From the NCBI GenBank assembly GCA_016214955.1, contig JACRMN010000012.1, forward strand, positions 248,001-312,000: a stretch of 64,000 nucleotides of DNA, given 5' to 3'. This stretch comes from Deltaproteobacteria bacterium (GTDB lineage: Bacteria > Myxococcota > Myxococcia > Myxococcales > Anaeromyxobacteraceae). A program made the position numbers and the translations under genes. The notes under the pieces are model-generated. The model had not been told where the DNA came from and ran no database searches. It saw only the letters and a list, made by a program, of their open reading frames with translations. Below are positions 6,395 through 43,496 of the stretch, piece after piece; position 1 is the stretch's first letter, and each line of letters begins with the position of its first letter.

Positions 6395-6820
6395 ACGGGC
6401 GGGCCGCGATCACCGCGGGGGGGCAGAGGGAGGCAGAGCGGGCGGAGTGCCGCGGGCAGAGGGGGCAGAGGAGGGCGGGCAGAGTGCCGGACAGAGGAGG
6501 GGGGCAGAGGGGGGCAGAGTGCCGGACAGAGGCAGAGTGCCGGACATGAACCACAGCGAAGACGGAGGGCAGAGGAGGGCAGAGTGCCGGACATGAACCA
6601 CAGCGAAGACGGGGAGCTTCGCGGGGCTGGTTGATGTTGTTCGTCCCTGGATGTTGCCAGAGACGGCACGAAGAGGGCTCGAAACGCCGGCAGAACTCAG
6701 GCGCGAAGCGAAAGGGCCGACCCTTGGGGCCGGGCGCGTCGCGGTGGCCAGCCGGGTCGGTCGAAGAACGCTCCCCGGCAGCGCCCTGCGGATCGCGAGA
6801 TGGCTCGCGGCTGGCCGAGG
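6395..6820. repeat. Intergenic REP-like array with core GTGCCGGACA, left flank of the split transposase
   Basis: This 426-bp gap holds no convincing gene. GTGCCGGACA occurs at 6484-6493, 6519-6528, 6537-6546 and 6584-6593, embedded in G/A-rich GGCAGAG runs. A 47-bp unit that includes ACATGAACCACAGCGAAGAC is present twice (starting near 6531 and 6578). The same core appears in reverse orientation beyond the other half of the transposase (16624-16720) and again at 25054-25180. From about 6630 to 6820 nothing recognisable remains. Confidence 0.7.
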
Positions 6821-7346
6821 TCAGGCTCTTGCGACGGTTGCTCGTCTGGGCGGCGAGAGGCCGCAGAACCGGAGACGCAGGGCGACCCAGCGCTCTTCGC
6901 CAATGAACGGCGCCTCGACGAGGTCCCACCGGCGTGTCATCAGGGACTCCACCAGTGGTACCGCGAACAGGTGCAGGTAGGCCTTGCGCCGCTCGGCCCA
7001 GGTCCGACCGAGCGCCAGGTACTCCGGTGCATCGGTGACGAGGTCGTCCGGCTTCCCGTAGGCGTAGTGGCAGTGGCTCGACCACTTCCAGTCGCTGGCT
7101 CTTGAGACGACTCCGGCCCGGACGGGGTTCAGGTCGCCGTATCGCATGACGGCGAGCTGGTGCCGGCCGTCCTGGATGCGGGGGGAGCGCAGGCGCTCCA
7201 TGACGACCTGTCCGCGGCCGCTGGTCCGCCGGTTGTACCAATGGGCGAAGCCCCAGTTGACGACCTTCCAGAAGGAGCTGAAGGCAGCCTGGCCCTGGAT
7301 GGAGCGGCAGACGAGGTGCGGGTGGGAGCCCATGAGGCAGTAGGAC
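6821..7346 (-). pseudogene. REP-associated tyrosine transposase (Y1/IS200-like), 3' part of a gene split by an insertion
   Basis: The minus-strand frame encodes the catalytic and C-terminal part of a single-strand transposase. The HUH-type metal motif is HPH in YCLMGSHPHLVC. The tyrosine-containing segment is MRYGDLNPVRAGVV, followed by the usual DWKWSSH block. The first third of the protein is missing here and lies 9 kb away at 16402-16565. Joining the two pieces at the shared GA/TC dinucleotide gives 690 bp in frame, or 229 residues, the normal size for the family. The host gene is therefore disrupted. The frame continues for a few codons into the inserted element, but those residues are not transposase-like. 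Confidence 0.8.
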
Positions 7347-7367
7347 GAGACGTTGACAATATACCTA
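7347..7367. other. Left attachment junction (attL-like) of the integrative element
   Basis: Host sequence ends in GTAGGAC followed by a candidate crossover dinucleotide GA (7347-7348). The element then shows GACAATATACCTA at 7355-7367. The exact reverse complement, TAGGTATATTGTC, sits at the other end (16380-16392). Paired inverted arms around a short core are what a large serine integrase attP site looks like when it is split by integration. The dinucleotide is inferred because it restores the transposase frame; another in-frame choice is possible. Confidence 0.65.
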
Positions 7368-7381
7368 CGCCGGGACACCAT
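7353..7381 (+). promoter_or_regulatory. Possible integrase promoter at the left end of the element
   Basis: A perfect TTGACA (7353-7358) overlaps the attachment arm. Seventeen bases later a weak -10 match, CACCAT, lies just upstream of the integrase ATG at 7389. Any transcript would be nearly leaderless, so the promoter may act mainly in the excised circle. This is weak evidence. Confidence 0.25.
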
Positions 7382-7388
7382 CCGGGCC

Positions 7389-8813
7389 ATGACGCCCGCC
7401 AAGACCCCGGCCGCCCCCCGCTACGTCGAGCTCGTCCGCGTCTCCGGCGCCTCCCAGGCTGCCAAGGACACCCCCGCCGACCAACGGGCCGCCCTCGAGC
7501 GGCTGCGTGAGGCACGGCCGGGGGTTCTCGTCGAGCGGATCGAGGAGGGCGCGGGTGGCCTCTCCGGCGCGCTCCCCCTGGAGCAGCGCCCCGACCTGAA
7601 GCGGCTCCTGCGGCTGGCGAAGGACCGCGCCTTCGATGAGGTGCGGGTCCGGCACCTCGACAGGCTCACCCGCCACCCCGACATCCGGGAGCGCGCGGCC
7701 ATCTTCGGCGCCATCGCCGAGGCTGGCGCCTGCATCGTGGACGGGGCGGGCCACGCCATCGACCCGCTCTCCGAGGTGGGCGAGCTGGAGTGGACCTTCG
7801 GCTCCCTCATGGCGGCCCGGGAGCGCAAGCGCATCACCGAGCGCACCCTGGCGGCCCGCCGCCGCCTGGCCGGGCAGGGCAAGCTACAGGGGCGCCGCCC
7901 CTGGGCGCGGACCTGGGACGGCGAGCGCTGGGGCGTCGTCGAGGAGCAGGTGAAGACGTACAAGAGACTCTTCGCCGAGGTGCTCGCTGGTCGGTCCCTC
8001 CACGCCATTGCCAGCGGTCTCAACGCGGACGGCATCAGGCCGCCGGAGGCGAAGCAGTGGTCCGCCGGTGGGGTGGCGCGCCTGGTACACGCCCGGTCGG
8101 CCATCGGCGAGGTGTCCTGCTACGGGAACACGCTGCGCTGCCCCCCTATCGTGGACGCACCGACCTTCGAGAAGGCCAACAAGGCGATCACATGGAGCCG
8201 CGCCGGCCGGCCGCCGCTCGACGACTCGATCGCGCTCCTCCGCAAGGTCGCGGTCTGCGGCGCTTGCGGCGAGATCATGTACGTGGACACGGTGTCGAAG
8301 CGCAGCGGCCGGCGCGTCTACTACCGCTGCAAGCACAGCAAGACCGCCCGCTCCCAGGAGTGCCGGCGCTACTTCGCCGTCGGCGAGGTGGACGCCCTGG
8401 TCCGGGCCGAGCTTCTCCGGTGGCTTGCGGCCGACGTCGCGCCGAAGGCGGGGAAGAAGGCGAACCCGAAGGCGGCCCTGGCCCGCGCCAAGGCGCGGAT
8501 CAAGGAGCTCGACGCGGAGGAGCGCCGGCTGCTGCGGGTGGGCCGGCGCGCCAGCGCGGCGAACCTGGCGGCGGTGCTCGCCGAGCTCTCCCAGGAGCGC
8601 GAGGAGGCGCAGCGCGACCTAGAGGCCGCGCGGCTGGCGGCGCGGCCCGGCCCGGCGCCCCTCGACGCTGCCAGGCGGGAGGCCCTGGTCCGGCGGGCCC
8701 GGAGCGCCTCGGGCGCGGAGCTGCGGGCCCTGGTGTGTGCCATCCTGCGGCCGGGCGAGGTTAGGATCTCCCCGGGGCCGCGGGTCCAGATCCGAGCCCT
8801 CGGGCCGCGCTAG
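7389..8813 (+). CDS. Large serine recombinase (site-specific integrase)
   Basis: The start at 7389 (MTPAKTPAAPRYVELVRVSG) gives 474 residues. The N-terminal resolvase fold has the nucleophile Ser19 in RVSGASQ and the conserved VRHLDRLTRHP helix. A recombinase domain covers the middle, with LHAIASGLNADGI and WSAGGVARLVHARSAIGE. It is followed by a zinc ribbon (CGACGEIMY ... YYRCKHS ... SQEC) and a Lys/Ala/Glu-rich coiled-coil segment, the layout of phiC31/Bxb1-type integrases. It sits at the extreme left end of the element and reads inward. It very likely catalyses integration at the RAYT site; excision usually needs a directionality factor, and one of the small downstream genes is a candidate. 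Confidence 0.93.
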   Translation: MTPAKTPAAPRYVELVRVSGASQAAKDTPADQRAALERLREARPGVLVERIEEGAGGLSGALPLEQRPDLKRLLRLAKDRAFDEVRVRHLDRLTRHPDIRERAAIFGAIAEAGACIVDGAGHAIDPLSEVGELEWTFGSLMAARERKRITERTLAARRRLAGQGKLQGRRPWARTWDGERWGVVEEQVKTYKRLFAEVLAGRSLHAIASGLNADGIRPPEAKQWSAGGVARLVHARSAIGEVSCYGNTLRCPPIVDAPTFEKANKAITWSRAGRPPLDDSIALLRKVAVCGACGEIMYVDTVSKRSGRRVYYRCKHSKTARSQECRRYFAVGEVDALVRAELLRWLAADVAPKAGKKANPKAALARAKARIKELDAEERRLLRVGRRASAANLAAVLAELSQEREEAQRDLEAARLAARPGPAPLDAARREALVRRARSASGAELRALVCAILRPGEVRISPGPRVQIRALGPR

Positions 8814-8827
8814 TGAGGGGGCGAGCC

Positions 8828-9391
8828 ATGGAATCCTCATCGCTGGACGATCGGGTTCGCTTTCTCAGGGCGATCGAGCGAGCGGCCCCCCAGGTGTTCG
8901 CCGAGCTTCGGGCCCTCGGCGCCGGCGCCACACACGCGGGGGTGGCCAGGTGGGCGGCCCGCTGGAACCTCGATGGGCCAGGCCTCGAATGGCTCCGCGC
9001 CGAGGCGTTGCAGGCGGCGCGAAAGGGCTTCGTCGGTGCACCGGCGATCGCTGACTTCGTGCTCACCCACGACCTGGAGCTCAGCCTCTCCTGGGAGCCG
9101 GCCGAGTCCGGGGAGACGCGGGCCCAGTTCCTGGCGCGAGCACGACGCGAGCTTGAGGCCTACGCCGACGAGGTACAGGACTGGGCTCGCGAGAACGCGC
9201 CGAGCGCACGGCGGGCGGAGCGGACGACCGGACAGGCCGAGGCCGGCGCCGCGCGCTGGGACCTCCTGGTGAGCCGGCTGGTGCTGGGCAGCACCTTCCA
9301 GGCCATCGGCGAGGAGATCGGGATCTCCTGGCAGGGGGCACGCGAGCACGTCCGCCGCCTGGCAGCCCGCCTCGGCGTGGCGCTTCCCTAA
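8828..9391 (+). CDS. Unknown protein with C-terminal helix-turn-helix
   Basis: The ATG at 8828 follows GAGGGGGCGAGCC and gives 187 residues. An in-frame GTG at 8813, inside the integrase stop, is an alternative. The first 150 residues are rich in Ala, Arg and Glu with no recognised domain. The C-terminus (TFQAIGEEIGISWQGAREHV) reads as a sigma-70 region 4 or LuxR-like helix-turn-helix. The position right behind the integrase suggests a regulator or recombination directionality role. That is inference; there is no family assignment. Confidence 0.65.
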   Translation: MESSSLDDRVRFLRAIERAAPQVFAELRALGAGATHAGVARWAARWNLDGPGLEWLRAEALQAARKGFVGAPAIADFVLTHDLELSLSWEPAESGETRAQFLARARRELEAYADEVQDWARENAPSARRAERTTGQAEAGAARWDLLVSRLVLGSTFQAIGEEIGISWQGAREHVRRLAARLGVALP

Positions 9392-9444
9392 CCGCACGGG
9401 CACAACCTAGGTCGGCGGACGTAGCTTGTCGCGCGGCCGGCGCC

Positions 9445-9657
9445 ATGCCGGCGATCTTGCGTGGCATGACGCTGCCAGACAGCACATCCCCACCCCTCGA
9501 CGCCGCCACCCTCCGGCGCCTCTCCGTCGAGGCCGAAGTCGATCCCAGGACCATCCTCCGCGTCCTCAAGGGCCTGCCAGTCCGTGGCCTGCCCCGCTAC
9601 AGGGCCCGCCGGGTCTTGCTAGGCGCCGGCTTCCTCCAGCCCGAGGCCAAGCCGTGA
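9445..9657 (+). CDS. Small putative DNA-binding protein
   Basis: The frame codes for 70 residues from 9445, or 63 from the in-frame ATG at 9466. The segment LRRLSVEAEVDPRTILRVLK resembles the first helix-turn-helix of LacI/MerR-type excisionase folds and is followed by a basic stretch (RGLPRYRARRVL). The stop overlaps the GTG of the next frame (GTGA). A directionality factor or Cro-like repressor would fit this position. Confidence 0.5.
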   Translation: MPAILRGMTLPDSTSPPLDAATLRRLSVEAEVDPRTILRVLKGLPVRGLPRYRARRVLLGAGFLQPEAKP

Positions 9658-9818
9658 GCCGCCTCGCCGCGAAGGTGGTGGTGGCGGTGGACGCGACATT
9701 CGGCCCCGAGGCGGCTGCCGCCGCGCTCCGATGGCTCGAGGGACTGCCGGCGGAGCAGCAGCGGCCGCGCCGCCGCCCACAGCTTCGGAACGTGTCCCCT
9801 CCCGAGCCGAAGCCGTGA
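9654..9818 (+). CDS. Short hypothetical protein, translationally coupled
   Basis: GTG at 9654 overlaps the preceding stop (GTGA) and opens a 54-residue frame (SRLAAKVVVAVDATFG at the start). It is Ala- and Arg-rich with a Pro/Arg tail, and no domain was recognised. The overlapping arrangement on both sides is the main support. Confidence 0.4.
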   Translation: MSRLAAKVVVAVDATFGPEAAAAALRWLEGLPAEQQRPRRRPQLRNVSPPEPKP

Positions 9819-9898
9819 GCGTCCTGCTGATGGTGCTGGTGGCGGTTCTCTCCACGGCGGCGCTGGTGGCGCCGGCGCTCCTCTCGCGGAGGCAGTGA
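9815..9898 (+). CDS. Tiny hydrophobic peptide, 27 residues
   Basis: GTG at 9815 again overlaps the previous stop. The peptide is almost entirely hydrophobic (LLMVLVAVLSTAALVAPALL) with a basic end (SRRQ), so it would be a single membrane helix. Small membrane peptides are common in phage-like elements, but so short a frame could be chance. Confidence 0.3.
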   Translation: MSVLLMVLVAVLSTAALVAPALLSRRQ

Positions 9899-9900
9899 CC

Positions 9901-10326
9901 ATGAGCGACAACGACACCCCGGTCGCGATTTTGGCGGCGACCGCTTTCACCTTCAGCGGGACGGAGACCCCGGTCCCCGTCATCGCCGTCGCCGACGTGC
10001 TGCTGGCGGCCGCTCGCCCCCACCTGTCGGAGCGCGACGTGGCCGTTGTGCTGGCCGTGGAGCTGGCGGGCGCCGAGTGCAAGCCCTGGCCCGGCGTGGA
10101 GCAGATCGACGGCAGCACCTGTCGGGTCACCAGCGCCCGGCTGGGCGAGCTGGTGGTGCAGGTGGTGGATCTCAAGTTCAGCGGCAGGCCGCTGCGCGTG
10201 CTGGCGGTGCTGCCCGCGGTGGCGTGGGCCGCCTACGAGGGCACCGGGTTCGCCCTGCGGCGCCTGGTGCGGATCGACGTGGCCGCCTGGAACCAGGCGC
10301 GGCTCGCCCGGCGGGCCCGAGCATGA
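9901..10326 (+). CDS. Hypothetical protein of the element
   Basis: The ATG at 9901 lies just behind the preceding stop and gives 141 residues. The protein is mostly beta-prone, with repeated Val-rich strands (ELVVQVVDLKF, LRVLAVLPAVAW) and few charged residues. It has no signal peptide and no recognised family. It overlaps the following tiny frame (ATGA). Confidence 0.55.
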   Translation: MSDNDTPVAILAATAFTFSGTETPVPVIAVADVLLAAARPHLSERDVAVVLAVELAGAECKPWPGVEQIDGSTCRVTSARLGELVVQVVDLKFSGRPLRVLAVLPAVAWAAYEGTGFALRRLVRIDVAAWNQARLARRARA

Positions 10327-10358
10327 AGCACTCCACGACAGGGAGGGCGACATCATGA
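10323..10358 (+). CDS. Possible 11-residue coupling or leader peptide
   Basis: The frame MKHSTTGRATS begins inside the upstream stop (ATGA) and ends inside the start of the replication-type gene (ATGA). The next gene also has its own GGGAGGG ribosome-binding site, so this frame may only be incidental. It is recorded because both ends overlap exactly. Confidence 0.2.
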   Translation: MKHSTTGRATS

Positions 10359-11347
10359 GCAGCGAGCCGCAGCCGGGCATCTACCGCAAGGTCGCGACCC
10401 GGGTCTGGCAGGACGCGAAGTTCAGGGCGCTGACGCCGCTGGCGCCGAGCGGCGCGGCGCTGTGGCTGTACCTGCTGACCGGCGAGGTGACGACGCAGCT
10501 TCCCGGCCTGGTGCGAGCCGGGGAGGCGGCGCTGGCCGAGGCGCTGGGCTGGCCCCTGGAGGAGCTGCGGCGCTGTTGGGCGGAGATCGAGGCGCAGAGC
10601 ATGGCGACGGCCGACTGGCCGGCCCGCCTGGTGTGGATCCCGAACGCCATCCGCTACAACCAGCCCCAGAGCCCGAACGTGGTGCGCTCCTGGGGCCGGC
10701 CCTGGGCCGAGATCCCGGAGTGCACCCTCAAGGACGCCGCCCGCCGCGTGCTGGCGCAGCAGATGGCGGAGCGCGGCGGTGCCTTCCTGGCAGCCTTCAA
10801 GGAGGCCTGTCCACCTGCTTCCCGAAAGCCTTCCGGAAAGGCTTCCCGAAAGCCTTCGGGCAAGCCTTTCGGGAAGCCATCGCCGAATCAGGATCAGGAG
10901 CAGGAACAGGAGCAGGAGCAGGAAGAAACCTTTGGCGCGGAGCTGCCGCCTGCCGGCGGCACTGCCGCGCCGGCCCCCCAGCCGGCTTCGCCGGTGGTGG
11001 TCACCATCCCCTGCGTCGGCAACGGGCCCAAGACCTACGACGTCACCGAGGAGTTGGTGTCCAAGTGGAAGCCGGTCTTCCCAGGTGTCGACGTGCGCGG
11101 CGAGGTGCTGCGGGCAGCCGCGTGGGCGGACGCCAACCCGGCGCGCCGCAAGACGGCGCGAGGCTGCCCAGCGTTCTTGACCCGATGGCTCGCGAAGGCC
11201 CAGGACAGCGGGCGCGGCAACGGCAGCCTGGCGCCGGCGCGCTACGAGAGAGTCCTCACCAGGGACGGCGGCGTCCGGCTGGAGCCGGTCGGCCGGGGCT
11301 TCCTGGAGCCCGCCGCGATGAAGATCATCCGCAAGGAGGACTTGTGA
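10355..11347 (+). CDS. Phage replication initiation (replisome organiser)-like protein
   Basis: The ATG at 10355 follows AGGGAGGGCGACATC and gives 330 residues. The N-terminal 150 residues look like the winged-helix domain of phage replication proteins: a short primary-structure element, TPLAPSGAALWLYLLTG, then LPGLVRAGEAALAEALGW and LVWIPNAIRYNQPQSP. A low-complexity linker of Lys/Pro/Ser and Gln/Glu repeats separates it from a C-terminal domain (LVSKWKPVFPGVDVRGEVL). The DNA encoding the linker carries direct and inverted repeats (see 10817-10878), as in lambda O where the origin lies inside the initiator gene. It probably starts replication of the excised element. Confidence 0.65.
   Translation: MSSEPQPGIYRKVATRVWQDAKFRALTPLAPSGAALWLYLLTGEVTTQLPGLVRAGEAALAEALGWPLEELRRCWAEIEAQSMATADWPARLVWIPNAIRYNQPQSPNVVRSWGRPWAEIPECTLKDAARRVLAQQMAERGGAFLAAFKEACPPASRKPSGKASRKPSGKPFGKPSPNQDQEQEQEQEQEETFGAELPPAGGTAAPAPQPASPVVVTIPCVGNGPKTYDVTEELVSKWKPVFPGVDVRGEVLRAAAWADANPARRKTARGCPAFLTRWLAKAQDSGRGNGSLAPARYERVLTRDGGVRLEPVGRGFLEPAAMKIIRKEDL
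10817..10878. repeat. Direct plus inverted repeat cluster inside the replication gene (candidate origin)
   Basis: GCTTCCCGAAAGCCTT occurs at 10817-10832 and again at 10841-10856. The 17-bp arm at 10840-10856 is mirrored by AAGCCTTTCGGGAAGCC at 10862-10878 with one mismatch and a 5-bp loop. Iteron-like direct repeats with a strong hairpin in the linker-coding part of an initiator gene suggest an origin. Simple selection on a Lys/Pro/Ser linker is the alternative. Confidence 0.5.
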
Positions 11348-11739
11348 CGCCGGCCGGCACCCCGCGCACGGCGCAGGCCCACCCGCAGGCGCTCGCCTCC
11401 GCCATCGAGGTGGGGTGGCCTCCCCGCCCCGTGCGCGGCCAGGCGGCCAAGGACGGCGGCGTGGGGGTGGGCGCCGGTGGTGGAGGCATCACCGAGGGTG
11501 AGGGGGGCCGCCGGTATCATGTTCACGTCGAGTGCGACCACCGCAGCCCTCCCCGTCCATTGTCGCGGGCACCGAAGCAAAACCGGCATGGCCGGGCCAA
11601 GGCGGGCCGGTCCTGCACCTGCCGGCCACCTGCGCCGGCGCGGCCGGGCGCCCGGCACGACCTGCGTCGGCCGGGCGGGCACCGGGCGCGACCTGAGACC
11701 ACGCGGCCGGTAGCGGCCGGCACCTGCACGGAGGGCTGA
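11344..11739 (+). CDS. Doubtful hypothetical protein, Pro/Arg/Gly-rich
   Basis: A GTG overlapping the previous stop (GTGA) opens a 131-residue frame. The composition is low-complexity (Gly-, Pro-, Arg- and His-rich, with CDHRSPPRP and SCTCRPP), and third-position bias is weak from about 11500. It fills the space before the terminase gene. If it is not a gene, 11348-11743 is a non-coding stretch whose GC-rich repeats (CCGGGCG-type) might serve as a packaging or control site. Confidence 0.25.
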   Translation: MTPAGTPRTAQAHPQALASAIEVGWPPRPVRGQAAKDGGVGVGAGGGGITEGEGGRRYHVHVECDHRSPPRPLSRAPKQNRHGRAKAGRSCTCRPPAPARPGARHDLRRPGGHRARPETTRPVAAGTCTEG

Positions 11740-11743
11740 CGAC

Positions 11744-12223
11744 ATGGGCGGGCCAGGATCGGGCGGGCACAACCGGAAGTCGGACGCGGCGAAGCGGCTG
11801 GCGGGCACCTACCGCGCGTCGAGAGCGCGCCCCACCGCCAGCGCGCTGCCGGGGCTCCCGGTGGTGGCCGTCCCGCCGCCGCCGGCCGGGCTGCCGGCCT
11901 GGGAGGCGGAGGAGTGGGAGACGTTGGCGGCGGAGGTGGACGATGCCGGCACCTTCACCGCCGCCGACCTGGGGGCGTTCCAGGCTCTGCACCGGGCCGT
12001 GGTGATGCTGCGCTGCGGGCTGCGCCGGGTGAAGGGGCGGGCGGCGTTCGACTTCCGCGAGTTGGTGGCGGCGCGCCGCCTGGTCGAGCAGCTACGCGGC
12101 GACCTGCTCCTCCCCGGGCCGATGGAGCGGCTCGCGCGGCGGCTGGCGCAGGAGCCGGCCCCGGGGACTGAGGCGCCCGGCGACCCGCTGGCCGGGTTCG
12201 GGCCGGCCAAGAAGCTGCATTGA
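11744..12223 (+). CDS. Phage terminase small subunit, P27 family
   Basis: This 159-residue protein begins MGGPGSGGHNRKSDAAKRL, the characteristic basic Gly-rich start of P27-type small terminases. A central helical region (WETLAAEVDDAGTFTAADLG and FRELVAARRLVEQL) and a Pro-rich tail follow. Small terminases recognise pac or cos DNA and recruit the large terminase. None is encoded here, so the protein would have to work with a helper phage's large subunit, as in phage satellites. The next gene is the capsid protein, 245 bp downstream. Confidence 0.85.
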   Translation: MGGPGSGGHNRKSDAAKRLAGTYRASRARPTASALPGLPVVAVPPPPAGLPAWEAEEWETLAAEVDDAGTFTAADLGAFQALHRAVVMLRCGLRRVKGRAAFDFRELVAARRLVEQLRGDLLLPGPMERLARRLAQEPAPGTEAPGDPLAGFGPAKKLH

Positions 12224-12468
12224 ACACTGTCGGGGCGCTCGTGGACTCCACGCACGAACCCGCTACGCTGGAACCCCGGCGGCCGCGCTGCCCTGGCGCC
12301 GCCCTCTCGGCTAGCCCGAGAGACCTCAACCCACCGGGCGAGCCCCGGGTTGCCCGCAGGGATGCGCCGCCTAGCGCGCGCGTGTGCCGCGGCTCCACTG
12401 CCAGGACTCCACCACCGTGAGCACGGGCGTCTGAGCCCTGGCGCGACACGTTGCACCTGAGGAAAGCC
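12224..12468. other. Gap with GC-rich hairpins between small terminase and capsid genes
   Basis: No gene is apparent. A perfect 7-bp stem CTCTCGG/CCGAGAG with a 5-nt loop lies at 12304-12322, and a second C/G-rich stem follows near 12334-12350. There is no U-tract. The region could be a terminator, a control element or a packaging site. Confidence 0.35.
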
Positions 12469-13734
12469 ATGATCGACACGCAGCAGATGAGGGACCGGAT
12501 GCTGGCGCTGAACGAGGAGGGCGGGCAGATCCTGGCCGCCGCAGAGGCCGCGGGCAACTCGCTGAGCAGCCAGCAGCGCCAGCGCCTGGACGCCATCCAC
12601 GACGAGTTCAACACCCTGGAGCAGCAGGTGGCCGCGGCCGACAGGAGCCGGATCCTGGCCACGCCCCAGCCGCTGCCGCCCGGCGTGCGGGACGGGCAGG
12701 TGCCGCCCAGCCGCCGCGCCAGCGCCGGCCACAGCGGCAGCGCCATCCTGGCCGGCGGTGCCATCGGGCAGGACCAGCGAGCCGTGAAGGCCCTCGCCGA
12801 CTTCGCCCGCCGCGGGATCCCCTTCCAGAGCAGCATGTCGATCGGGAGCGACCCGGACGGCGGCTACTTGGTCCCGGTGGAGATCGACCGCGACATGCAG
12901 ACCGTGGCCGCCGGCTTCTCGCCGCTGCTCCCACTCGCCAAGAACTACTTCGGGGTGACCGACGGCTTCCGGCCGGTCGTGGTCTCCACTCTCCCGGGCA
13001 GCACCTGGAAGGCGGAGGGTGACACGCGCTCCGTGACCGCCTCGCCGGGGCTGACGCAGATCGTGCCCCAGCGCGGTGGCGTGGCCGCGGTGGTGCAGGC
13101 GTCGCAGTGGGTGTTGCAGGACTCCGATCCAGTGGCCTACGACGTCATCGTCAGGGGCCTGGGCATGCAGAACGGCGCGGCCATCGGCGCGGCGATCATC
13201 AGCGGTGCCGCCGGCCAGCCCGCGCCCAAGGGCCTCACCGCCCAGACCACCGCTGCCACGGCAGACGGCTCGCGCGCCTTCGGGACCGTGGAGCACATCG
13301 CGACCGGCGGCGCCACCACCGCGCCCAGCCTCGACAACTGCCTGACTGCCCTCAGCCGGTTGCACCCGTTCTACCAGGCGGGCGCTGCGTGGCTCATGTC
13401 CCCCAGCGCGTGGGCCGCGCTCCAGGGGCAGAAGTCGAGCGGGGGTGGCGACTTCATGTGGCAGCCGGACCTCAACGCCAAGGAGCCGCCGCGGCTGTTC
13501 GGGAAGCCCGTGCACATCGACCCCAACCTCCCGGCGGCCACGACCGCCGGCGCGCTCAGCGTGTGGCTGGGCGACTGGCAGCGAGCTTACGCGGTGTGCC
13601 ACTACGGCTCTCCGATCCTGATCCGCGACGACGTGACCGTGAAGGGCCAGGTGCTGATCTACTCGGAGCGGCGCGTGGGCGGAAACCTGGTCGACTCCGC
13701 CGCCTGCAAGGCGATCAAGACCGCCACCTCGTAG
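12469..13734 (+). CDS. HK97-type phage major capsid protein
   Basis: The ATG at 12469 follows GAGGAAAGCC and gives 421 residues; a TTG at 12451 is an alternative. The N-terminal 60 residues (MRDRMLALNEEGGQILAAAE onward) are a helical delta-domain/scaffold segment. From about residue 125 the HK97 fold is recognisable: GSDPDGGYLVPVEI, LPGSTWKAEGDTRSVT, the Q..WVLQDSDP strand and AWLMSPSAWAAL. The C-terminal strands (AYAVCHYGSPILIRDDVTVK) end in the usual G-loop-type region. No protease, portal or large terminase gene accompanies it. Capsid genes are normally surrounded by those partners, so its solitary presence is the oddest point of the element. Confidence 0.9.
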   Translation: MIDTQQMRDRMLALNEEGGQILAAAEAAGNSLSSQQRQRLDAIHDEFNTLEQQVAAADRSRILATPQPLPPGVRDGQVPPSRRASAGHSGSAILAGGAIGQDQRAVKALADFARRGIPFQSSMSIGSDPDGGYLVPVEIDRDMQTVAAGFSPLLPLAKNYFGVTDGFRPVVVSTLPGSTWKAEGDTRSVTASPGLTQIVPQRGGVAAVVQASQWVLQDSDPVAYDVIVRGLGMQNGAAIGAAIISGAAGQPAPKGLTAQTTAATADGSRAFGTVEHIATGGATTAPSLDNCLTALSRLHPFYQAGAAWLMSPSAWAALQGQKSSGGGDFMWQPDLNAKEPPRLFGKPVHIDPNLPAATTAGALSVWLGDWQRAYAVCHYGSPILIRDDVTVKGQVLIYSERRVGGNLVDSAACKAIKTATS

Positions 13735-13748
13735 CAGGTCAGGGGAGG

Positions 13749-13898
13749 CTGCACTGGTGGTGGAGGAGGCTAACCGGGGACTGTCTTGGGCCCGGGAATG
13801 GCTGCGCACCGCGAGGACGCCAGCCCAGAGCGCGGGCTCTCTGCCCCGCCCCTCGGGCGCTGATGCGGGACCTCCTCCCGCCGCCACCACCAGTGCAG
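13749..13898. ncRNA. Candidate structured RNA or long hairpin after the capsid gene
   Basis: CTGCACTGGTGGTGG at 13749-13763 is perfectly complementary to CCACCACCAGTGCAG at 13884-13898. The pairing extends inward through GAGGAGG/CCTCCTC with a small bulge. Inside is a smaller stem (AGAGC-GCGG-GCTCT). The 150-nt unit is non-coding and lies between the capsid gene and a convergent gene. It could be a small RNA, a bidirectional terminator or a packaging signal. Confidence 0.45.
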
Positions 13899-13932
13899 TA
13901 CCCCACCGGCGCGCAGCAGCACCCGGGTGACG

Positions 13933-14478
13933 CTAGGGCCGCTTGAGCAACGGCGGTGGCTCGGCCGCCGCCGGCGCATTCTCGTGAACCGGTGCAGGTG
14001 GCGGCAGCGGAGCAACGATCTGCACTTGGTTCAGGTAGATGTTGAAGTTGTTGACCGCCTTCTCGCTTTCCCGATCTTTCAGGCGGGTGGCGCAGGTGTT
14101 TGCCAGTACCAGGACCGCGGTGAGCAGCGCGATGTTCTCCTTGGTGAAGGCGACCCGTAGGAGATCCCATATCGCGCGTGTCTCGGGCCTAACCACGACA
14201 GCATCGAAGGTGACGCTGAGGTTCAGGGTTTCCACCAACGACGCGTGGAACACCGCTGGGGGCGTCGCGGTGATCCCGATCTCCCCGGCCGACGCGATTC
14301 CGGTGGCAGACTCCAGGCGCAGCGTTGCCGCCCTGAACACCTCACGGACCTCCTGCGGCGGGAGTTTGTCCAATTCGGCGAGCGCGGCGGCCAGGAGCGC
14401 CTTGAGGTCGCCGCCGCACCCTGGGCACTTGTCGGCGTCGAACTCCCTACCGCAAGCCGGGCAGGTCACTGTGGGCAT
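13933..14478 (-). CDS. Zinc-ribbon protein with a hydrophobic segment, unknown function
   Basis: Starting at 14478 the protein has 181 residues; an ATG at 14499 would add seven. The N-terminus is a zinc ribbon (CPACGREFDADKCPGCGG). The middle is acidic and beta-prone. A hydrophobic helix (IALLTAVLVLANTCA) lies near residue 135, before a Pro-rich tail (APLPPPAPVHENAPA). No family was recognised. It is the first of two minus-strand genes in the right half of the element, whose base composition is less GC-biased. Confidence 0.6.
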   Translation of the reverse strand: MPTVTCPACGREFDADKCPGCGGDLKALLAAALAELDKLPPQEVREVFRAATLRLESATGIASAGEIGITATPPAVFHASLVETLNLSVTFDAVVVRPETRAIWDLLRVAFTKENIALLTAVLVLANTCATRLKDRESEKAVNNFNIYLNQVQIVAPLPPPAPVHENAPAAAEPPPLLKRP

Positions 14479-14525
14479 GGGCGTGGATGGTACTCGCATC
14501 CCACGCGCGGTGGAACCCGCGCAGG

Positions 14526-14801
14526 CTACTCGCGCCGCAGCGCCGCCGCGGCCACCGCCCGGTGCAGGTCGGCGGTCAGCGACAGCAGCGCCCGCACCTC
14601 GCGGCGGTACTCCGTGCCGTGCCCGCTGTGCAGCAGGATCCGCCGCACGGTGGCCAGCCGCTCCTCCAGCGCCATGAGCCGCACCTGGCCGGGCGTGGGC
14701 TCCACCTCCGCGTCGGAGCGCCAGGGGTGCCGCAGCTTCTCCACCAGCGGGGGCCAGGCGCTACCGTCGAGGCAGTGGGCGGGGCCAAGGCCGTTGTCCA
14801 T
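14526..14801 (-). CDS. Small helical hypothetical protein
   Basis: From the ATG at 14801 this encodes 91 residues; the frame is open to 14876. The second half is strongly helical (VRLMALEERLATVRRILL, EYRREVRALLSLTADLHRAV), suggesting a short coiled coil. No family was recognised. It lies 27 bp upstream of the zinc-ribbon gene on the same strand, so the two may be co-transcribed. Confidence 0.5.
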   Translation of the reverse strand: MDNGLGPAHCLDGSAWPPLVEKLRHPWRSDAEVEPTPGQVRLMALEERLATVRRILLHSGHGTEYRREVRALLSLTADLHRAVAAAALRRE

Positions 14802-14975
14802 GAGGTGCAACGGTAGCGGAGCGGGTCGCGGGCGGTGATGGCTCGCACCCATGGTGACAGGCGCCTCGCGCCCCACTACGCTGGTGATGCCGGCGGCGGG
14901 GCTGTCCCGATGTCGCCTCGCTGCCGGTGCCGCACCCCGGACCAGCGGTCAGATCCCCCGCCTACACTGGCAGGC

Positions 14976-15803
14976 ATGGACCTACTTGCTTGGTGGAAGA
15001 CGCTCAAAGAAGTGGTCGTAGTCGCTGGGGTAGTCCTCGGCGCCGGGTCGCTCTACTTCGCCGCCAGAACCTACTGGCGCAACGGCCTCATCGAAGAGGA
15101 CAGGTGGCGCTCGCACCTCGCGTTGCAGGCCGTCGCCATGGACTCCAGCGTCGCCATCAGCGAGGCCGTTCACGCCGGAGACTCAATGACCGTCGAGGTT
15201 CTCCGCCCCCGGCCTCCCGCAACGACTGGGCAGCGTGCCCCGTCCCGGCCCCCTGCCAAGACCCCGGCCACGAGCAAGAAGGAGCCTTCGGGGAATGCAA
15301 CGGTCGCTCTCACGCCGATCGCAGCGGCAGGGAGCGTGGGCAGAGAGGCCGCGCCTCAAGAGAAGCACCGGCCCAGCGGTTCGGCCGCGGCCCGAGAAGC
15401 GCCGCCCGCGGGCACAACCTTCGCGATCGAGTCGGTCACCGCGACGGGAAGCGTGGCGGGTGTTGCTTCGTCCAGAGAGACCATCCACGTGATTGTTCGC
15501 AACGCGAGCTTCCGCCCGGCGGCGATCGTCTGTGTCTTCCTACGTGACCACGCCGGGCGCCCGGTAGGTCCCGACTGGTGGAAGAACGTGGGCCGGCTGC
15601 ACCTGCCGCTCCCGATCCCGCCTTGGCAGATCGCAACCCTTGCCATCGATGTTGACGGAACCGACTTCGAGCAGGCGGTCGAGCTTGTGGTGGGCGACGG
15701 GGACGACGGGGAGGTGGCCATCCCCTTGCGTGAGAGGGCCCGCTGGCGTGAGTGGATCGACTTCCAGCGCCCGCCCTCCGCGAGCAAGTGCATGCACCAG
15801 TAG
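14976..15803 (+). CDS. Hypothetical single-span membrane protein of the element
   Basis: The ATG at 14976 is chosen because the upstream part of the frame is low-complexity; it gives 275 residues. A membrane helix (VVVVAGVVLGAGSLYFAA) occupies residues 12-30. A disordered Pro/Ala/Ser/Lys linker runs to about residue 135, then a beta-rich domain (IHVIVRNASFRPAAIVCVFL, IATLAIDVDGTDFEQAVEL). The layout suggests an anchored, outward-facing domain. No homologue was recognised; phage exclusion or entry interference are guesses. Confidence 0.6.
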   Translation: MDLLAWWKTLKEVVVVAGVVLGAGSLYFAARTYWRNGLIEEDRWRSHLALQAVAMDSSVAISEAVHAGDSMTVEVLRPRPPATTGQRAPSRPPAKTPATSKKEPSGNATVALTPIAAAGSVGREAAPQEKHRPSGSAAAREAPPAGTTFAIESVTATGSVAGVASSRETIHVIVRNASFRPAAIVCVFLRDHAGRPVGPDWWKNVGRLHLPLPIPPWQIATLAIDVDGTDFEQAVELVVGDGDDGEVAIPLRERARWREWIDFQRPPSASKCMHQ

Positions 15804-15881
15804 TCGCCCCTGGCTGCACTGGGGATGCCCTTCTTCAGTTCTGTCACCGTCGGTAGAACCGTAGGATTCTAGGGAGGAGCC

Positions 15882-16253
15882 ATGAACGCATTCGGGATCG
15901 CCTTTGTGGTCGTAGCGGTCGCTGCCAGCATCTTCTACGGCGCCTTCGCGCACGACATCCACGTGTGGCCCAACAAAGCAGACCAGCCGCGGCCCATGCG
16001 GCTTGCGTATCGGGTTCACCAGTTCTGGTTCAACTTCGTGGGCTCGGTTTCTGGCTGGCTGGCACTCTTGAAGGTCGGGGACCTGGTCGATCGAGGCGAG
16101 TTCGCCACCCGCTGGGGCGACCTGGGCCTGTCTCTGGTTGCGCTGCTGGGCATCACCGGCTACCTGCCCCTCACGCTCTACACGTTCGCCGCCTATGGCG
16201 GGGAGAAGCTGCGCCAGAAGGCAAATGAAGCTGCGGCTGGCGGGGGCAAGTAG
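15882..16253 (+). CDS. Hypothetical multi-span membrane protein of the element
   Basis: The start at 15882 follows GGGAGGAGCC. The 123-residue protein has hydrophobic helices at residues 3-23 (FGIAFVVVAVAASIFYGAFA), about 48-66 and about 83-105, with short charged loops and a basic C-terminus (KLRQKANEAAAGGGK). No family was recognised. It is the last gene before the right attachment junction. Cargo genes at the edges of satellites often encode anti-phage or exclusion proteins, but nothing in the sequence proves this. Confidence 0.6.
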   Translation: MNAFGIAFVVVAVAASIFYGAFAHDIHVWPNKADQPRPMRLAYRVHQFWFNFVGSVSGWLALLKVGDLVDRGEFATRWGDLGLSLVALLGITGYLPLTLYTFAAYGGEKLRQKANEAAAGGGK

Positions 16254-16379
16254 GCAGCCGCCTGGCGCCGCGCCGGCGCAGCCGCTTGCCCACCGCTGCG
16301 CGATCGCCAACCGACGGGGCCGAAGGGCGGGTTCGGGCTGGATCATGGCCCTGGCGCGCCTGGTGCGTGGTGTTTCTCA

Positions 16380-16403
16380 TAGGTATATTGTCTAGTAATA
16401 TGA
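16380..16403. other. Right attachment junction (attR-like) of the integrative element
   Basis: TAGGTATATTGTC at 16380-16392 is the reverse complement of the left arm. The candidate core dinucleotide GA lies at 16402-16403, followed by host transposase sequence GTGGACCTCGATTCC. Joining both element ends gives a dyad with 13-bp arms about 17 bp apart, centred near the core. Confidence 0.65.
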
Positions 16404-16565
16404 GTGGACCTCGATTCCGAACTTCTCCTTGTACTTCCGGACCAGTGAGAGGAAGTGGCGGCGGGCCTCATCGGAGTCGAGGACGAAGGCGAAGCCGTGG
16501 CTGCGCCAGGTGCAGTGGTTCGTGGAGCCTTCCTCGATGAGGAGGGAGCGACGGACGCGGGCCAT
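16402..16565 (-). pseudogene. REP-associated tyrosine transposase, 5' part of the split gene
   Basis: From the ATG at 16565 the minus strand reads MARVRRSLLIEEGSTNHCTW and on to KYKEKFGIEVH, the typical N-terminal third of a Y1 transposase. Beyond the core it runs into the element and stops within a few codons. Its continuation (CLMGSHPHLV) is at 6821-7346. An upstream in-frame ATG at 16583 would add six residues. Confidence 0.78.
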
Positions 16566-16623
16566 CGGACTGGCAGTGAGCAAGCCTCAGGCCAACGCGC
16601 GCGCAGCTCCCTGCGAGACTTGA

Positions 16624-16720
16624 TGTCCGGCACCCGATTCCCGCGCGCTCATGTCCGGCACGCCGCCCCCCGACACGCGCGCTCATGTCCGGCACGCCGC
16701 CCCCCGCTCATGTCCGGCAC
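16624..16720. repeat. REP-like array with core TGTCCGGCAC, right flank of the split transposase
   Basis: TGTCCGGCAC occurs at 16624, 16652, 16686 and 16711, mostly within a GCGCTCATGTCCGGCACGCCG unit. It is the reverse complement of the core on the other side of the transposase, so the arrays face each other across the gene. A run of 13 C residues follows at 16750-16762. The rest of 16566-16782 shows no gene. Confidence 0.7.
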
Positions 16721-24928: not shown

Positions 24929-25053
24929 GCGCACCCCTCCCCCCCATCGTACCCTCGGCACCCCGGCGCGTCCGGGCCTGCGGTCCCGCGCCTCGGGTGC
25001 GGCGCGACCCCGCCAGGAGCCGCTCATGCGCCTCGCTCGCGACTCGGGACTCG

Positions 25054-25180
25054 GTGCCGGACGGACTCGGGCGGACTCGGTGCCGGACGGTGAGGGGACT
25101 CGGTGCCGGACGGTGAGGGGACTCGGTGCCGGACGGTGAGGGGACTCGGTGCCGGACGGTGAGGGGACTCAGTGCCGGAT
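25054..25180. repeat. Tandem array of a 23-bp unit with core GTGCCGGAC
   Basis: The unit GTGAGGGGACTCGGTGCCGGACG repeats at exact 23-bp steps, with cores starting at 25080, 25103, 25126, 25149 and 25172. An earlier core starts at 25054 and the last copy is degenerate (GTGCCGGAT). The core equals that of the arrays around the split transposase, although the flanking bases differ. The unit has no spacers, so it is not a CRISPR. Confidence 0.75.
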
Positions 25181-25252
25181 GGTGCAGGCGCCCCCCCCCA
25201 TCGGAACCATAGTTCCTGGCCCATCGCGTCATAATTCCTGAGGAAACGGCCC

Positions 25253-42605: not shown

Positions 42606-43496
42606 CTATCCGAACGCCGCGCAGGGTGCTCCGTGGAGCACGCGCATCTGGTACGTCCCCGCCGGGAACACGACCGCGGGGTCGTTCCGCGTCCAGGCGG
42701 CCAGAGCCTCTCGATACGCCCTGAGGAAGTCCGAGAGTCGCCGGAGCACTTCGATCCGCTTCCACTTGTCCCGCGCCGCAACACGCGGGTTGAGCCCACC
42801 GCGCGTTTGCGCCAGCGCTGGCCGTGACGTGAAGCGCTGGGCGAGCACCCGGGCCGCGCCAAGGAAGCTCTTCCCCTGCTGCTCGACGACCTCTCGCTCT
42901 TCCAGCGCGCCGCGGAGGGCCCTCGCGAAGTCCTCTGCCGAGGCGAAGCCGGGAGGCGCGGCGAGCTCGAGAGCGACAGACTCTGGAAGCTGGCCCTTGG
43001 GATTGAAGAACTGCCCGGGCTTGCGAGCGACGATGGTGGTCCCGATCCGCTCGGGGCTCGACCAGAGACCGGGCCATTCCCGGCCGGTGCGAACGAGCCC
43101 GGCGGCGACGGGGTTGGCGAGCACGTAGGCCGCCTTGGCGAGTATGTCCTCGGGCGTGGCCAGAGCAACGGCGCTGTAGCTGTTGGGGGCCCAGAAGGAC
43201 TCGCTGCGGCCGAGGCTGGTGTTGAGAGCCCGCGCCACCAGCGCATCGAGGAGCTGGCCGAAGGCGGGCAGGCGCGCGTGGGGATCGGTGAGGATGAGGT
43301 GGTAGTGGTTGCTGAGGACGCAGAAGGCGTGGACGCGGACGCCGTAGCGCTGCGCCGCGAGGGCGAGGAGGTAGAGGAAGGCCTGGTTGACCAGGCGCCC
43401 GGGCCGCAGGAGAAACTGCCTCTGGGTGCAGCGGCGGGAGACGAGGTAGCAGGTGCCTGGGAGAACCTGGCGCGGAGCGGTCACGCGCGGTTGCAT
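42606..43496 (-). CDS. REP-associated tyrosine transposase (Y1/IS200-like), intact
   Basis: This 296-residue protein has the HUH motif NHYH (residues 63-66 in AFCVLSNHYHLIL), the nucleophile Tyr124 in AAYVLANPV and the C-terminal extension common in RAYTs. It starts with the family-like VTAPRQVLPGTCYLVSRR. RAYTs cleave and paste single-stranded REP elements and are often domesticated single-copy genes. It belongs to a different subgroup from the split copy (NHYH versus SHPH). It lies between the DUF1801 gene and the pseudouridine synthase, with a 34-bp tandem repeat beyond its 3' end. Confidence 0.85.
   Translation of the reverse strand: MQPRVTAPRQVLPGTCYLVSRRCTQRQFLLRPGRLVNQAFLYLLALAAQRYGVRVHAFCVLSNHYHLILTDPHARLPAFGQLLDALVARALNTSLGRSESFWAPNSYSAVALATPEDILAKAAYVLANPVAAGLVRTGREWPGLWSSPERIGTTIVARKPGQFFNPKGQLPESVALELAAPPGFASAEDFARALRGALEEREVVEQQGKSFLGAARVLAQRFTSRPALAQTRGGLNPRVAARDKWKRIEVLRRLSDFLRAYREALAAWTRNDPAVVFPAGTYQMRVLHGAPCAAFG

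Follow-up and report, generated by a model that had tools for sequence, protein, structure and literature searches.

The prophage-like element phiRv1 is small and has a capsid gene as well as a small protein for directionality. It resides in Mycobacterium tuberculosis, carries a serine recombinase and integrates inside the repeated element REP13E12 (PMC9317374). Capsid genes are also known from phage satellites. The cf-PICIs, with an average size of 14 kb (PMC10803314), encode the whole head: the major capsid protein (MCP), protease, portal, connectors, both terminase subunits and an HNH nuclease (PMC10690885). The Streptomyces phage satellites MulchRoom and MiniFlayer also carry the large terminase subunit (TerL), portal, scaffold and adapter (PMC10690885). 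Large serine integrases have been surveyed by Durrant et al. (2022), and the targets named in the available text of that survey include magnesium chelatase, prolyl isomerase and competence genes (PMC10083194).

The window analyzed here, a stretch of 64,000 nucleotides, is part of contig C26; the genome has a size of 5.3 Mb, and its close relatives belong to Anaeromyxobacter. It holds a 9,058-bp element that is probably phage-satellite-like, self-integrated at a GA/TC core in a RAYT-like Y1 transposase gene and dependent on a helper for its packaging. Like phiRv1, this is a serine-recombinase element in a repeated sequence, an analogy of integration mode only; the target is a Y1/RAYT transposase gene instead of REP13E12, the host is a relative of Anaeromyxobacter, and the element has no protease gene. 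It resembles the cf-PICIs in its satellite size and in having its own MCP and small terminase (TerS), but it lacks portal, TerL and protease. Assignment to the cf-PICIs was rejected, as TerS and MCP alone do not make up a complete capsid and packaging module. MulchRoom and MiniFlayer are likewise satellites with capsid genes, whereas the window element has neither TerL nor portal. With the integrases of Durrant et al., the system shares one conserved site in a coding sequence and a 2-bp core; RAYT/Y1 transposases are not among the targets named in the available text of the survey (PMC10083194).

A transposase gene split at a GA/TC core

The two fragments that flank the element belong to one transposase, as the preliminary description had proposed. 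When rejoined, they align through the junction, over residues 1-232 and with 94% identity, to C16:77851-78546 in the same genome, an intact copy of the RAYT-like gene that reads uninterrupted across the insertion point. Another complete copy, on contig C19, has 83% identity, and no fewer than two others are represented by pieces at the ends of contigs. With the split copy, the gene family thus has five or more members in the genome; the number is a lower bound, because copies are cut off by the ends of contigs C4 and C29. Both of these contigs (of G000) terminate at approximately the same residue. Two outcomes had been named as speaking against the insertion, a restored protein that fails to align and fragments that exist as separate genes; neither was encountered, since the restored protein aligns and full-length intact copies are present in the same genome. 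A comparison of the same locus with relatives was uninformative, the left neighbour gene being absent from the nearest relatives searched.

In the intact copy, the junction DNA reads GAGGTCCACTCCTACTGCC on the gene strand. On that strand, one element end reads GAGGTCCAC[TC]ATATTAC..., and the other ...GTCTCG[TC]CTACTGCC. The sole sequence common to both ends is TC (GA on the plus strand; Table 1), and it is the only dinucleotide that fits both the intact copy and the attP symmetry. Joining 7345 to 16404 restores an empty site of 687 bp, encoding 228 amino acids (...EVHSYCLMGSHPHLV...). The right end at 16403 had been placed correctly from the start. The left end had been set at 7349, 3 bp away from the 7346 given by the intact copy, and the corresponding join of 7348 to 16404 (690 bp, 229 residues) is one codon, a Ser, too long in comparison with that copy. 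The insertion is precise and its ends can be defined, as initially claimed, but through the intact copy and not through the frame and length first offered as proof: around 26 joins at shared dinucleotides near the ends also stay in frame, so an unbroken frame at such a dinucleotide says little. The core is certain because the intact copy agrees with a 13-bp inverted repeat exactly centered on GA/TC.

The predicted attP is TAGGTATATTGTC-9 bp-GA-9 bp-GACAATATACCTA, with perfect 13-bp arms at equal distances to the core. Among 400,000 random position pairs in this window, inverted runs of at least 13 bp had a frequency of 1.5e-5. The intact copy and the arms are independent lines of evidence, because the former fixes the core without using the latter. 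Symmetric arms around a 2-bp core are as expected for a putative serine integrase attP. In the structural model for the A118 family, a half-site spans 25 bp and has the outer ZD motif at positions 16-24 (PMC3783163); in the window attP, these positions are largely covered by the arms, and the half-site size fits. The attB on the gene strand reads GGTCCAC-TC-CTACTGCC. The rebuilt 52-bp attB is identical at 51 positions in the C16 copy and at 47-48 in three further copies of the genome.

RAYT copies do break the assembly, as contigs C4 and C29 demonstrate, and repeated copies could have been misjoined around unrelated sequence. Such an artefact is highly improbable: the two halves are complementary and overlap by the 2-bp core only, the spacing of the flanking repeat arrays is as expected, and symmetric integrase arms are present at the ends, beside an integrase gene. 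This gene starts 43 bp from the attL core. Its product combines resolvase, recombinase and zinc ribbon domains (Pfam: 58, 40 and 33 bits, all above the cut-off) in one long protein, which, together with symmetric attP arms around a 2-bp crossover, characterizes the large serine integrases. Most likely, the insertion was made by this integrase of the element itself.

Table 1. Features of the element and its flanks in the window (., no strand).
Feature	Position	Strand	Basis or remark
REP-like repeat array, (A)TGTCCGGCAC	6484-6594	-	beyond the transposase 3' end
C-terminal fragment, RAYT-like Y1 transposase (host part)	6821-7345	-	from the Ser codon of EVHSYCLMGSHPHLV on; alignment and profile matches
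attL crossover dinucleotide GA (TC on gene strand)	7344-7345	+	intact copy and attP symmetry
Integrated element, 9,058 bp including one GA core copy	7346-16403	.	comparison with intact C16:77851-78546
13-bp attP arm GACAATATACCTA	7355-7367	+	perfect inverted repeat of 16380-16392; 9 bp inside core
Large serine integrase, 474 aa	7389-8813	+	family matches (Resolvase, Recombinase, Zn_ribbon_recom)
187-aa protein	8828-9391	+	no family match; C-terminal helix-turn-helix-like sequence by eye
70-aa protein	9445-9657	+	HTH-like by eye; no family match
143-aa protein	9895-10326	+	no match
DnaD-like helicase-loader protein	10355-11347	+	PHROG 1701, 1.5e-13
Terminase small subunit (TerS)	11744-12223	+	PHROG 83, 2.6e-6 (weak match)
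HK97-type major capsid protein (MCP)	12451-13734	+	TIGR01554 192 bits, profile 6-384/385; Pfam 131 bits
Zinc-ribbon-like protein, no assigned function	13933-14478	-	below-cut-off matches only
Possible 116-aa protein	14526-14876	-	no match
Protein with N-terminal hydrophobic stretch	14976-15803	+	no match
Small hydrophobic protein	15882-16253	+	no match
13-bp attP arm TAGGTATATTGTC	16380-16392	+	same offset from core, 9 bp inside
attR crossover dinucleotide GA	16402-16403	+	intact copy and attP symmetry
N-terminal fragment, same transposase (MARVRRSLL...EVH)	16404 to ~16565	-	alignment to intact copy
REP-like repeat array, (A)TGTCCGGCAC	16623-16720	+	upstream of transposase

Gene content and the reduced capsid set

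The gene starts in Table 1 were set by open reading frame and reading, and several small genes may be mis-called at a G+C content of 73%. The 70-aa protein might, as a guess, be the directionality factor. A search of 60 related genomes yielded no relative of the DnaD-like gene, and no anti-phage defence families were found among the cargo. Family searches, and tblastn with the proteins of four phages, revealed no large terminase, portal, protease or tail genes in the element. It is thus, at 9.06 kb, a compact integrated element without complete virion genes, as is typical of phage satellites. We read it, from its predicted genes, as a minimal capsid-bearing phage satellite. Its own genome gave no match to Phage_portal, so a helper of the portal-encoding type would not be resident.

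Strong relatives of the MCP within the phylum are confined to three other Anaeromyxobacteraceae genomes (G015, G007 and G012). The G015 element (L057 2166-11683, G015:C271) is complete and 9.5 kb long; it is bounded on one side by a tRNA-Cys gene and on the other by 19 bp that repeat the end of that gene. It encodes a tyrosine integrase, a primase/helicase, TerS (117 bits) and MCP; no TerL, portal or other head gene was identified by family searches and tblastn with phage proteins. G007 (L056, C199) and G012 (L058, C175) hold fragments with integrase, replication and MCP genes and without TerL or portal, an absence that is not proven, because both elements are on short contigs. In the MCP tree, a single clade with 100/100 support unites the proteins of the four elements and separates them from 20 phage MCPs. 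Single-protein queries gave no match, for the MCP among viral contigs as for the integrase among genome contigs; alignment-based queries did better.

In phages, the MCP gene comes after those of the large terminase, portal and protease. A remnant of the protease end (a weak match) precedes the MCP gene in G015 and G007 and suggests that the capsid set arose by deletion from a TerL-portal-protease-MCP operon. The same remnant, the normal operons in which MCP relatives are found elsewhere, and the location of the closest integrase (54% identity, L183) on a 36.5-kb phage contig are also what a decayed prophage would leave: a full phage with this serine integrase that lost genes after integration, now inert debris between real att sites. 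Such decay is unlikely, as the reduced set of TerS and MCP recurs in G015 with a different integrase and replication module, and the two elements that are complete have intact ends and a compact size of ~9-9.5 kb. Neither would independent recent decay predict a single MCP clade with full-length frames in four elements. Because the reduced set is shared at full length, a satellite lineage is favored over independent decay.

Transposase genes as integration targets

The target is RAYT-like with a caveat: its scores are under both curated cut-offs (NCBIfam REP_Tyr_transpos, 52.5 bits for a cut-off of 80; Pfam Y1_Tnp, 19.5 bits for a cut-off of 23), yet an HUH-type motif, SHPHLV (context HS-YCLMGSHPHLV), and REP-like arrays are present. 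The RAYT label of the preliminary description needs this caveat. The insertion point is around six codons ahead of the HUH motif. The repeat TGTCCGGCAC adjoins all five RAYT copies, and it does so on both sides in the three that are not truncated by a contig end. Genome-wide, ATGTCCGGCAC has 54 occurrences, in comparison with a single one for the reversed control; approximately half lie beside RAYT copies and the remainder are dispersed. The association with dispersed short REP-like repeats that marks RAYTs is therefore found here. No exact match to a paired-hairpin form of the REP-like repeat was found. As to the proposed link of the island itself with REP biology, no evidence was obtained except the choice of target. 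Elsewhere in the window, a tandem array at 25046-25184, with a 23-bp unit containing GTGCCGGAC, resembles the RAYT-flanking repeat and has no RAYT adjacent.

A second case was encountered in a relative, G021. There, an integrase 44% identical to that of the window directly adjoins the C-terminal portion of another transposase of the Y1/REP type, whose N-terminal portion is 12 kb away (element L048/L151, G021:C1 39881-51874). The CA core falls within the codon for the first His of the HUH motif and is flanked by symmetric arms, CTGTGC-8-CA-8-GCACAG. A small resolvase is located at the opposite edge of this element and could have acted there rather than the integrase. The G021 element also holds an IS4-type transposase, apparently interrupting a SIR2-like gene. 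The window itself carries, at 42867-43307 on the minus strand, an apparently open member of the second Y1/REP-type family, the kind that is split in G021.

No Y1 fragments were found beside the other related integrases (G020, G005, G044, G019, G004, G051, G040, G030 and four viral contigs), so the targeting of RAYT genes is no general trait of the clade, and in the integrase tree the window and G021 proteins are not grouped together. Given the G021 case, Y1/REP-type transposase genes are recurrent, not obligatory, landing sites. The preliminary description had called a RAYT target unusual. The open-licence papers searched agree with this, as none was found to describe a RAYT gene as the target of a serine integrase (and nothing relevant on Anaeromyxobacter satellites emerged), but the second case in a relative tempers it.

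A serine recombinase of low specificity or with multiple targets might have landed by accident in a common multi-copy gene, which would account for the clade integrases of the phylum beside which no Y1 transposase was found; with at least five copies, the gene is a frequent target by number. We consider this rather unlikely. By a rough count, Y1/RAYT genes make up well below 1% of these genomes. They were nevertheless hit by two elements whose integrases are related, and the two insertions (with the proteins aligned by eye) are separated by only 21 bp within one conserved block. The identity of the site between copies, 47-51 of 52 bases, also speaks against an accident.

A probable satellite that would borrow most of its virion

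For the satellite-like element, the following course can be proposed. The integrase would join attP to attB, splitting the RAYT-like gene and leaving attL and attR; recombination activity and excision are predicted. The loss of one RAYT copy is probably cheap and the others would be spare sites, because at least five copies exist and four others share 47-51 of the 52 bases. The element would provide its integration and, through the DnaD-like protein, part of its replication. The small terminase may mark the element's own DNA, and the capsid protein would likewise come from the element, with large terminase, portal, protease and tail supplied by a helper phage.

Tentatively, and with slightly less than even confidence, a new lineage of ~9-kb Anaeromyxobacteraceae satellites with TerS and MCP only can be proposed, and serine integrases of the clade of the window enzyme would repeatedly have made the HUH block of multi-copy RAYT/Y1 transposase genes their landing site. 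Portal, protease, packaging motor and tail must then be borrowed. A serine integrase with exactly defined predicted attP and attB could be a useful recombination tool. REP-kind transposases can be the landing site of phage elements, and the intact copies in the same genome are built-in controls. If the lineage is real, a satellite with only TerS and a capsid protein would be intermediate between islands remodelling the capsid of a helper and the cf-PICIs with their whole head, and it would raise a testable question: how a foreign capsid protein joins the portal and motor of the helper.
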